Of a stretch of 5,699 bases of DNA, positions 652 through 3,709 are shown in pieces. Under the pieces are notes generated by a model that was not told the origin of the DNA, did not search any database, and saw only the letters and a program-made list of their open reading frames with translations. The stretch comes from Lachnospiraceae bacterium (GTDB lineage Bacteria; Bacillota_A; Clostridia; Lachnospirales; Lachnospiraceae). Positions within the stretch are counted from its first letter, which is position 1. Each line of letters begins with the position of its first letter. Both the position numbers and the translations under genes were made by a program. The stretch lies in assembly GCA_017540915.1 (NCBI GenBank), contig JAFYAD010000132.1:1-5699 (forward strand). Reading direction: 5' to 3'.

Positions 652-659
652 AAAAAATC
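652..659. repeat. Left copy of 8-bp target site duplication
   Basis: AAAAAATC abuts the left end of the inverted-repeat element and is repeated exactly at 803-810 against its right end. An 8-bp duplication is the size made by IS66-family transposition. The A-rich sequence lowers its statistical weight, but both copies sit exactly at the element boundaries. Confidence 0.75.
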
Positions 660-802
660 GTAACTGTTCAGAACCAAGCTCGAAAATCAAAGATTTTCTC
701 GCTGTTTGGTTCTCACCAAAGAAATTTGTACAAAAATCCTCTTATGAATGCAAGCATTCAACGAGTATTTTTATACAAATTGCCTTGGTTCTGAACAGTT
801 AC
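660..802. mobile_element. IS66-type MITE (143 bp, non-autonomous)
   Basis: The element has perfect 19-bp terminal inverted repeats: GTAACTGTTCAGAACCAAG at 660-678 and its complement at 784-802. It is bounded by an 8-bp direct repeat. Known IS66-family elements have ends that start with GTAA and make 8-bp target duplications, so both ends and duplication fit. It holds no transposase gene, so it would depend on a full-length element elsewhere. The interior folds strongly: GAAAATC/GATTTTC (682-688/692-698), TTTGGT/ACCAAA (705-710/715-720), and a long arm 724-780. In that arm 724-737 pairs with 767-780 at 13 of 14 positions, capped by TGAATGC/GCATTCA (745-751/754-760). With the outer stem this makes a cloverleaf. 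Family assignment rests on end sequence and duplication length only. Confidence 0.75.
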
Positions 803-810
803 AAAAAATC
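803..810. repeat. Right copy of 8-bp target site duplication
   Basis: AAAAAATC directly follows the right terminal repeat and matches 652-659 exactly. Removing the element and one copy restores a continuous promoter, short leader and ribosome binding site. Confidence 0.75.
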
Positions 811-1588: not shown

Positions 1589-3709
1589 TTATGCAGCGGT
1601 GTCATCAGTCTTGTCTTTCTTATCTTTTTTATCTTTCTTGTCTTTTTTGTCCTTTTTGTCCTTCTTGCCTTCTTCCGTGTTACCGTCAGCTTCTGTTTCT
1701 TCGGTGTCTTCTGCTTCTACCGTTTCATCCGTGTCAGCTGCTTCCTCAGACTCCCCTGCATCTTCAATATCTTCTGCTTCCTCTGTTTCTTCTACTACTT
1801 CTGTATCTTCTGCGTCGTCAGCATCGGCCTTATCCTCTTCTGCTTCGGTAACTTCTGTCTTGTCCTTATTTGCTTTGACATTTTTATCTACATCCGATGT
1901 GTATTGTGTGCGGTTGGCCGTCACAATATCCTTAAACATCTCATCAGCGTCCATGTAACCCTTTGTGTAATACCATGATCCCTCAAAATAATTTGATCCC
2001 ACTATGTCACCATAACCGGACACAAGATACTCACCATTGGGGAAATTGACGATGCCATCATATTCCACCGGATAGTAAACCGTCGTCTTTTCAAAACTCT
2101 TATCCTTGTGTGATACAGTTGCGGAAAAAATAATGTAGTATTTGTTATTTATGGCGTAATCCGTTCCCGGCTCTTTGGCGAGCAGGAGATACTCTTTGTC
2201 CACTGCAAGGTTCTTTACAGACACGTCCTCATTGTAAGAGCTCTCAATGTAGCTCTCGATCTTCTCTTTTGCCTTGTCTGTCAAAACAGTTCTGCAGGAA
2301 TCGTATATATCGTCCAGACCTTCTATGGGGGACTGCTCTGTGTACTGCTCAAATCCGTCTCCCACGGTGGCAACATATGAGTCTCTCTTCGACTCTACCA
2401 GCTCTTCATAACACTTCAAAGGATTTGTGTAACCGTCGGTACTGTTCCATGTTCCGCCCAGGCTTCCCCATCCTACTATGTCATCTGTCTTCTCACCTGT
2501 CACGCTGCCATCTGTAGCTTTTAACAGATTCTTAAACTGTACCGGATAGTATACCTTAGTCTTTTCAAAGCTTCCCTTTGTGCTGGAAACAAAACCTGTG
2601 TAGATCAGATACAGATCATTATATTCGTAAAAATAGTCATCAGTATCCTTTACCGTCTCAAAAATATAACCCGAATACTCAAGGTCGCTCAGTTTGGAAT
2701 CATCGTAATTTTTGGCTGCATATGCCGAAATGATATCCTCACATTCGGCCTTTGAATCTGTCAGGTAAGCCTCGCTGATGTCCGCATAGTCTGTCACATA
2801 GGACTCAAGTCCGTCAACCGTGTACGTTTTCTCGGTCTCAGTGAGGATGACTCCGTAGCTCTCAGCCATCACGGCACCGATGTCATCAGAATAATAGCAT
2901 GCCAGCTTAACCTTGACGGTATCCCCATTGGACAGACCGGAGTTCTTGTCTGTGCTCACATAGAGGGATTTCACGGAATCCTCTTTCGAATCCACTTCAA
3001 CATTGCAGTAGCCGTCCGGGGCAATACCGTCAAATGTGACTACTATATCATCAAAAGGATTGACTTCCCTTAACGGCGTAAGTCCGCTGACGCTGTATGT
3101 GATGTCCGAATATTTAAGCTTGCATTTCTTAAAGAGCTTTTTCAGAAGCTCCTCATCTATGGTCCACTTAAATTCTACGGTATCTCCGTTGGACAGTCCC
3201 GTACCCGCATCCATGAATCCGTTGGCATAATCCGCCAGCATCTGCTCCGGAGTGTCATATTCATTAGCTATGCTCCTGTTGCCGCCGGTGTATTTTATCT
3301 TGCCTGCGTAATCTGCGATAAAAGCTTCCTCGTCAAAGAGAAATCCCGTGTCGGCAGTGCCGTATCCGTCATAACCCTCAAATACCGGATCCTTCACATA
3401 TTTATTGAGATCCACAACTGTCTTTCTGTTGATAACAGCTATTATGATGATCAGGAAAAGAAGTGCTCCCGCGCAGGCTGCTATCACGATCTTCGGATCA
3501 ACATTTACGGCAGGCTTTGCCGGACCGTCCTGAGGTATCCCCATAGGTCCCTGTACAGGTGTTCCTGTTACCGGTGCTCCCGTTGCCGGCTTTCCTGCTG
3601 CCGGTGCTCCTGCTGTGGGCGTTCCTGCCACCGCTTTGATCTTCGTTCCGCAGTTAGGGCAAAACGCTGCTCTGTCATCAATTTTTGTTCCACATTCCGG
3701 GCAAAACAT
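1589..3709 (-). CDS. Zinc-ribbon, single-pass membrane protein with duplicated outer modules and acidic/Lys-rich tail
   Basis: This is a 706-residue protein of unknown function. The ATG at 3709 is preceded by AAGGAGG (3716-3722) 6 nt upstream. Residues 3-20 are a zinc ribbon (Cys3, Cys6, Cys17, Cys20). A Pro/Ala/Gly/Thr-rich linker (28-68) and one membrane helix (about 74-93) follow. The positive NRK after the helix, and the lack of a cleavable signal, leave topology uncertain. By analogy with zinc-ribbon membrane proteins, the ribbon should be inside and residues 97-706 outside. The outer part starts with FEGYDGYGTA (110-119). Two stretches then carry GLSNGDTV (171-178, 258-265), each followed by Y(S/T)V(S/D)GL. 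Two related modules of about 130 residues (about 318-450 and 468-603) share SFEKT(K/T)VYYPV and a DIVG...G-(T/S)W...GY pattern. The tail is Glu/Asp-rich (617-680), then six Lys-Lys-Asp repeats (682-699). The gene begins 16 bases after dapL stops, so co-transcription is likely. A role at the cell envelope is inference. Confidence 0.9.
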   Translation of the reverse strand: MFCPECGTKIDDRAAFCPNCGTKIKAVAGTPTAGAPAAGKPATGAPVTGTPVQGPMGIPQDGPAKPAVNVDPKIVIAACAGALLFLIIIIAVINRKTVVDLNKYVKDPVFEGYDGYGTADTGFLFDEEAFIADYAGKIKYTGGNRSIANEYDTPEQMLADYANGFMDAGTGLSNGDTVEFKWTIDEELLKKLFKKCKLKYSDITYSVSGLTPLREVNPFDDIVVTFDGIAPDGYCNVEVDSKEDSVKSLYVSTDKNSGLSNGDTVKVKLACYYSDDIGAVMAESYGVILTETEKTYTVDGLESYVTDYADISEAYLTDSKAECEDIISAYAAKNYDDSKLSDLEYSGYIFETVKDTDDYFYEYNDLYLIYTGFVSSTKGSFEKTKVYYPVQFKNLLKATDGSVTGEKTDDIVGWGSLGGTWNSTDGYTNPLKCYEELVESKRDSYVATVGDGFEQYTEQSPIEGLDDIYDSCRTVLTDKAKEKIESYIESSYNEDVSVKNLAVDKEYLLLAKEPGTDYAINNKYYIIFSATVSHKDKSFEKTTVYYPVEYDGIVNFPNGEYLVSGYGDIVGSNYFEGSWYYTKGYMDADEMFKDIVTANRTQYTSDVDKNVKANKDKTEVTEAEEDKADADDAEDTEVVEETEEAEDIEDAGESEEAADTDETVEAEDTEETEADGNTEEGKKDKKDKKDKKDKKDKKDKTDDTAA
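1613..1666 (-). repeat. Six-copy 9-bp coding repeat (Lys-Lys-Asp)
   Basis: Six 9-bp units of the form AAR-AAR-GAY encode six Lys-Lys-Asp triplets near the C-terminus of the zinc-ribbon protein. Third-base differences between copies show the array is not freshly amplified. Any change in copy number would keep frame, so the tail length could vary between strains. The adjoining Glu/Asp codons make 1600-1860 strongly purine/pyrimidine-skewed between strands. Confidence 0.8.

Follow-up and report, generated by a model that had tools for sequence, protein, structure and literature searches.

The window analysed here is a 5.7 kb stretch (5,699 nt) of Lachnospiraceae bacterium DNA (GCA_017540915.1, contig JAFYAD010000132.1), probably of gut origin. 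It opens with a minus-strand gene at 1–468, which is cut by the window end and gave no Pfam match, and which is divergent from a plus-strand gene at 830–1516 whose product has a zinc ribbon (PF13240) at its C-terminus in addition to hydrophobic stretches. The latter gene is rare in the family, being found in nine of 397 genomes at E ≤ 1e-8 with an identity of at most 46%. The adjoining minus-strand gene at 1589–3709 encodes a second zinc-ribbon protein of 706 aa, in which the zinc ribbon is N-terminal and is accompanied by a hydrophobic stretch and by a long tail, acidic at first and then lysine-rich. A sigma-70-like promoter-like site (TTGACA-17-CATAAT, plus strand, 620–648) agrees with the consensus at 11 of 12 positions, this assignment being a consensus match only, and three such sites were found between 450 and 900 where 0.9 would be expected. 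A ribosome-binding site, AGGAGG, is located at 817–822 on the plus strand.

Between the promoter-like site and the ribosome-binding site lies a 143-bp element (660–802), which was assigned to the minus strand on the basis of strand-specific marks and a below-cut-off match to RF01699 at 670–792. Its left terminal inverted repeat, GTAACTGTTCAGAACCAAG (660–678, plus strand), is the perfect complement of the right terminal inverted repeat (784–802, minus strand) over all 19 nt with a spacing of 105 nt; of the 10 inverted pairs listed in the window, no other is perfect. If base frequencies are taken as equal, chance alone is estimated to give about 4e-6 perfect 19-bp arm pairs spanning no more than 200 bp per 5.7 kb. 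The arms are flanked by identical 8-bp copies of AAAAAATC at 652–659, which covers the predicted transcript start of the 620–648 site, and at 803–810; this exact flank adds a further improbability to the figure for the arms. Both the perfect ends and the duplication had been pointed out in a preliminary description of this DNA, and both were confirmed. The ribosome-binding site and, at 830, the start codon are outside the element, just past the right duplication. As a short non-coding element with terminal inverted repeats and a target duplication of fixed length, 652–810 is almost certainly an intact, non-autonomous MITE.

The preliminary description had further called the element an IS66-type MITE and proposed looking for a full IS66 element with the same 19-bp ends. 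Elements were found which agree with the window over the first 16 bp of the ends, while positions 17–19 differ, being AAG in the window and CCT, CCC or CGT in the IS66 elements. The best of these is an intact 1988-bp element (L067, 613–2600) which encodes a transposase with PF03050 (DDE_Tnp_IS66) and DUF6444 domains, has the 16-bp ends of the window with one mismatch on one side, and is flanked on both sides by AATCTTAC (8/8). The same type of end accompanies relatives or pieces of the L067 transposase at L205, L009, L007, L202 and L204, five more whole or partial elements. Agreement with the window was 16/16 for at least one end of L067, L007, L009 and L205, and 15/16 for L202 and L204 as well as for the second end of L067 and of L205. 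The flanks of the two-ended elements L205 and L007 were checked and showed no duplication. In place of a canonical tnpA/tnpB/tnpC set, L067 contains one DDE gene and a 126-aa open reading frame without Pfam match (2099–2479, minus strand), which is located inside the element upstream of the transposase, where tnpA/tnpB would be expected. Canonical IS66 genes were also considered as the partner and were rejected, since at 13 other PF03050 loci no end came closer than two mismatches in 12 bases.

The window element thus has in common with these DDE_Tnp_IS66 and DUF6444 elements, in which no tnpA/tnpB was recognised, the 16-bp end GTAACTGTTCAGAACC and an 8-bp duplication as at L067. It differs from them in having no transposase and in positions 17–19, and its interior is unrelated: similarity is confined to the end bases, and all other matches were of 9–13 bases with E ≥ 2. 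The proposed IS66 derivation therefore stands for the ends and the duplication and not for the interior. The L067-type transposase was present in two of 26 genomes at E ≤ 1e-30, one being the genome of L067 itself, and in two of 299 family genomes at E ≤ 1e-40; at E ≤ 1e-10, PF03050 was without a match in seven of 14 genomes. In most of the hosts examined, an autonomous partner of the L067 type was not seen. Mobilisation by an IS66-type transposase is nevertheless the best-supported driver, and we predict it with considerable confidence.

To follow the element in relatives, the 16-base end was scanned as an exact pattern and at least 119 stretches matched; among the matches listed, most records were named Lachnospiraceae or other Clostridia. 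A few matches, for instance L036, L038 and L042 in other phyla, were without a partner end and look like chance matches. In all loci then collected, 102 of 328 end pairs of the GTAACTGTTCAG type had 8-bp flanks matching at 7 or more of 8 positions, compared with 0–5 when the left flank was moved by 1–3 bases. With 652–810 as the BLAST query, 78 of the 397 genomes in one family had a match at E ≤ 0.01; we take this family to be Lachnospiraceae because the genome that defines it (G025) is a Roseburia MAG. Of the matches, 22, in 17 of these genomes, span 125 or more of the 159 bases with 69–80% identity. A covariance model (R1) built on 16 long BLAST-matching elements found matches in all of 25 genomes, which had been picked because matches were already seen there in earlier searches. 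The counts were 2–76 per genome at E ≤ 0.001, at what are unrelated sites; G021 (Muricomes intestini DSM 29489) gave 60 matches and G027 (Konateibacter massiliensis) 38. The counts may include some elements twice, because true elements score weakly on the wrong strand too.

At the boundaries set by the model, the 8-bp flanks were identical in 26 of 88 matches, agreed at 7 or more positions in 38 and at 6 or more in 50. For 30 copies from two genomes, whose ends fit with 0–3 mismatches in 28 bases, perfect flanks were obtained in 19 and 7 or more of 8 in 25, with 28 distinct left flanks; the boundaries of this set were scored with the flanks included and so were partly chosen by them. Among 13 copies from a single genome (G052), 48 of 78 pairs align over 130 bases at 93–99% identity. 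The family is of high copy number and, judged from the sequences, recently active in the relatives. The expectation of multiple copies with differing 8-bp flanks was thus borne out in related genomes, and both checks run there favoured the reading as an IS66-type MITE. For one G052 copy, the two flanks were joined and used to search for an empty site, and none was found in a genus represented by G052 alone; the closest species sought for an empty site of the window had a DapL identity of at most 83%. A search of plasmids gave no match, and viral contigs searched for the exact 20-base end gave zero. Phage records gave four human-faecal matches, the best with 71% identity over 94% of the query; the 71%-identical copy (L393, 2512–2662; MT837934.1) is on an unverified "bacteriophage" scaffold from human faeces. 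A partial tmRNA (RF00023, below cut-off and truncated by the locus end) was seen at L154 593–701, about 160 bp from a MITE copy.

The interior of the element is a folded core and not the remnant of a transposon. With its flanks, the element was predicted to fold with −57.6 kcal/mol on the plus and −67.1 kcal/mol on the minus strand, with z-scores of −12.1 and −10.3, respectively, so that the better z-score is found on the plus and the lower energy on the minus strand. The predicted fold consists of a closing stem which includes the terminal repeats and three hairpins, all assigned to the minus strand. Hairpin A (678–702) has a TC/TC internal loop on the plus strand (680–681 and 699–700), which is a tandem G.A on the minus strand. 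The small middle hairpin (705–720) reads TTTGGTGAGAACCAAA on the minus strand and occurs in two sequence types in relatives, and the long hairpin C (723–781) has the tip GCTTGC on the minus strand (750–755), a G(CUUG)C loop.

Covariation was assessed on an alignment (A3) of 88 matches (85 distinct), in which 88.2% of 4499 cells were paired, a value favoured by the fact that the alignment was fitted to the model. Two-sided changes were seen at 48 of 55 pairs; they comprised 733 cells, whereas the 500 shuffles gave 245 ± 13 and never reached that number, and sliding the partner gave no more than 121. A MAFFT alignment of 16 elements scored with the structure of the window pointed the same way, with 24 of 56 pairs and with 88 cells versus 36 ± 4. 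The matches came from 87 hand-picked loci found by BLAST and R1; of 90 loci, L141 (weak), L149 (no match) and L282 (duplicate) were left out. Near-duplicates were reduced by taking in only two of the 20 G052 copies and part of another copy set. The closing stem and the three hairpins are maintained by compensatory changes. Some loci with related folds had other ends: L164 283–429 and L128 1498–1632 are R1 matches with perfect closing stems of 21 and 14 bp and other outer letters, and L149 1410–1553, with no R1 match, has a 17-bp perfect closing stem and hairpin A in common. The stems of these three differ from the IS66-type end, and no duplication was evident in the flanks inspected.

Several observations bear on the strand which folds. 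In 31 representatives, which are below 80% identity to one another, and with the middle hairpin excluded, the plus strand had 55 A-C and 26 G-T cells; read on the minus strand, these are 55 G-U and 26 A-C cells, a twofold excess of G-U. The TC/TC loop of hairpin A, tandem G.A on the minus strand, was present in 42 of 85 distinct rows, and GCTTGC or GCTCGC (GCTYGC) was found on the minus strand in the hairpin C zone of 70 of 88 rows; the G(CUYG)C loop type is stable in RNA. Columns with any G-U and with any A-C were near even (36 versus 33). Orientation relative to flanking reading frames, readable from crude frame calls in 77 of 88 rows, was unbiased (27/22/14/14). An earlier reading of no strand signal was dropped after the G-U counts in representatives and the loop conservation had been obtained. 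The evidence supports, and does not prove, a strand-specific fold, mainly of the minus strand, and we consider it probable that the fold is both selected and strand-specific. The data do not separate RNA from single-stranded DNA as the folding molecule.

The whole window had no Rfam match at gathering thresholds. A permissive Rfam scan of 600–840 gave a minus-strand match to the Clostridiales-1 RNA (RF01699) over the full model (1–166) with 32.7 bits (E 9e-6), below the cut-off of 48 bits, with the full-length architecture on one strand; the remaining eight hits were all to microRNA models at 23.9 bits or less. Of 20 family loci scanned at gathering, two passed (L298, 48.2 bits; L301, 48.6 bits, full model, E 4e-10). 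A scan at E ≤ 0.01 covered 17 family loci and three controls with other GTAAC-MITEs; six of the 17 family loci matched (four from G008, one from G324 and one from G232), and the three control loci gave no RF01699 match. In seven of seven matching elements, the one in the window included, from four genomes, the RF01699 strand was opposite to that of R1. One family locus (L283) also hit rliD with 26.7 bits (cut-off 50). The motif ATGAGCA with TGCGAAT was present in nine of 88 rows of A3 (seven from G008, two from G324) and in 30 of 68 RF01699 cores, and occurred in three of 20000 letter shuffles; the GCTTGC tip is common to the window family and the RF01699 cores.

A survey in which up to 17 candidates were scored per genome covered 150 genomes from the family of G008, 63 of which had RF01699 above cut-off, and 14 control genomes, none of which did; under its stricter filters, G008 itself gave no RF01699 match. 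GTAAC ends on true RF01699 copies were sought and rejected, as the 30 copies checked have other ends. Their flanks often contain TGATRCCAGGGTCAAAAG on one side and, beyond an extra hairpin, TGATGTTGGGGTCAAAAG on the other, and many copies (among L321–L390) lie between TGATG..GGGTCAAAAG inverted repeats. From 70 loci, 68 were processed (L327 and L338 were dropped at contig edges), of which 44 satisfied the rule for the ends and 24 did not. With the right end picked by a rule blind to the flanks, a 5-bp duplication was perfect in 29 of the 44 and matched at 4 or more of 5 positions in 36, compared with 0–6 perfect in shifted controls. These ends and duplications indicate that RF01699 in these genomes is in many cases a MITE core, a reading which we hold to be very likely. 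Weinberg et al. 2010 (PMC2864571) graded Clostridiales-1 as probably RNA and probably not cis-regulatory; in the main text of that paper "mobile" and "inverted repeat" are absent and "transpos" occurs once, in the name of another motif. In the open-access literature, supplements aside, no paper was found which calls Clostridiales-1 a MITE.

RF01699 and the window element are alike in the closing stem, the long hairpin with its GCUUGC tip, the middle hairpin and the third hairpin with a G/A-rich internal loop, and in being of high copy number in the same bacterial family. They differ in that RF01699 has TGATG..GGGTCAAAAG ends, a 5-bp duplication and a larger middle hairpin, the window scoring 32.7 against the cut-off of 48. 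On balance, we lean towards common descent of the two cores. Convergence of hairpin-rich MITEs is the less probable explanation, but has several points in its favour: the window scores below cut-off, 11 of 17 family loci had no match at E ≤ 0.01, four of the six that matched are from G008, the helix sequences differ, unrelated hairpin models also score weakly (the microRNA models in the window, rliD at L283), and the shared ATGAGCA/TGCGAAT motif came among A3 rows from two genomes only. It is harder to reconcile with full-model matches of up to 48.6 bits (L301), with the same strand in seven of seven elements and no match in three other GTAAC-MITE loci, or with the frequency of the motif in both sets relative to shuffles and the common tip. 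Since RF01699 is MITE-like with other ends, two kinds of MITE with unlike ends appear to carry one folded core. Tentatively, and with rather less confidence than for common descent, the Clostridiales-1 core may be a mobile Lachnospiraceae cargo in MITEs of at least two end types, in which the fold and not the ends is selected; at least two different transposases would then be used.

The account which we regard as likely for the locus as a whole is that of an IS66-driven MITE with a selected folded core related to RF01699, which now forms a 5′ leader. An IS66-family transposase acting in trans would recognise the first ~16 bp of the ends and insert with an 8-bp stagger; ends, duplications and many copies in relatives were observed directly, and the act of transposition is inferred from them. 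The core would be a distant relative of the Clostridiales-1 fold, which is also found inside another kind of MITE with a 5-bp duplication. It was most likely selected as a folded single strand, in the first place as read-through RNA from neighbouring promoters, perhaps because a fold which is compact and contains neither terminator nor reading frame lets insertions be tolerated or lends stability to the transcript; the main alternative to RNA would be a folded single-stranded DNA intermediate. In the window, the consensus sites suggest that the MITE now serves as a 143-nt structured 5′ leader between the promoter and the ribosome-binding site of the zinc-ribbon gene, the insertion presumably leaving the translation start uncovered. 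The preliminary description had set a mobile element and a structured RNA against each other; for this element the two are not exclusive, given the resemblance of the core to a listed RNA family as well.

That the zinc-ribbon gene has a resident structured RNA or leader which is not mobile would fit the position between promoter-like site and ribosome-binding site, the z-scores of −12 and −10 and the below-cut-off RF01699 match, but the exact 8-bp flanks, the relatives at many sites with differing duplications and the rarity of the zinc-ribbon gene in the family make it highly improbable. Compensatory changes in palindromes can also come from hairpin-templated repair, and long palindromes are corrected by template switching, so that the element could be an ordinary IS66-type MITE with a functionless fold, its palindromes owing their persistence to mutational processes only. 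The unbiased orientation to genes, the perfected hairpin A of some copies (e.g., L118, L125) and the near-even wobble counts per column agree with this. The persistence of unpaired features (TC/TC loop, GCTYGC tip) and the skew of mismatches to G-U on one strand argue against it, since a strand-blind process should not yield them, and we judge it unlikely. Only slightly less unlikely is that the core folds as single-stranded DNA in transposition or replication and that this DNA fold, rather than an RNA, is selected: the stability of tandem G.A and CTTG loops extends to DNA, the terminal repeats form part of the fold, and the lack of orientation bias is again in agreement. IS66 transposases, in contrast, belong to the DDE enzymes, whose presumed substrate is duplex ends, and RF01699 has the common architecture with different ends. 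The IS66-driven MITE with a selected core remains the preferred reading.

Prokaryotic MITEs such as QMITE2 of Coxiella are short, with terminal repeats, direct repeats of 7–9 bp, AT-rich targets and a transcript with stable stem-loops (review PMC10969869). The window element resembles them in size, terminal and direct repeats, AT-rich targets and a stem-loop transcript, and differs in having one three-hairpin architecture which covaries across many genomes and is apparently common to MITEs with unlike ends. A set of 250 palindromic candidate RNAs from human microbiomes does not name Clostridiales-1 in the portion consulted (PMC8040213), and no paper on IS66 MITEs in Lachnospiraceae was found in the open-access literature, supplements aside. 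If our account is true, the candidate RNA family RF01699 moves to the mobile elements. We would predict that, where high-copy bacterial "ncRNA" families show covariation, its source may be selection acting on the cargo of transposons, and the dozens of near-identical copies in some genomes offer a test bed for why many bacterial MITEs fold.

Other small palindromic elements were observed in the same loci. Micro-palindromes of 27–37 bp, in which a pair of GTAACTGTTC ends meets head to head between 8-bp duplications, were seen at several loci (L020 294–330, L032 3226–3253, L045 3752–3783, L088 60–87, L093 3869–3896 and others); among end pairs of 24–40 bp, 25 of 105 had flanks matching at 7 or more of 8 positions, compared with 0–1 in shifted controls. 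Given their similarity to one end of a class of MITEs of ~135 bp, direct-repeat slippage within such a MITE and end-hairpin transposition are both possible origins. A further MITE class of 145 bp with GTTACTGTTCAC-like ends was seen at L004 3133–3277, L025 2497–2641, L070 338–482 and L115 1055–1199, with flanks matching at 7–8 of 8 positions. In genome G021 (L194, 110), an IS66-like transposase adjoins a GTTACTGTTCACACC end.
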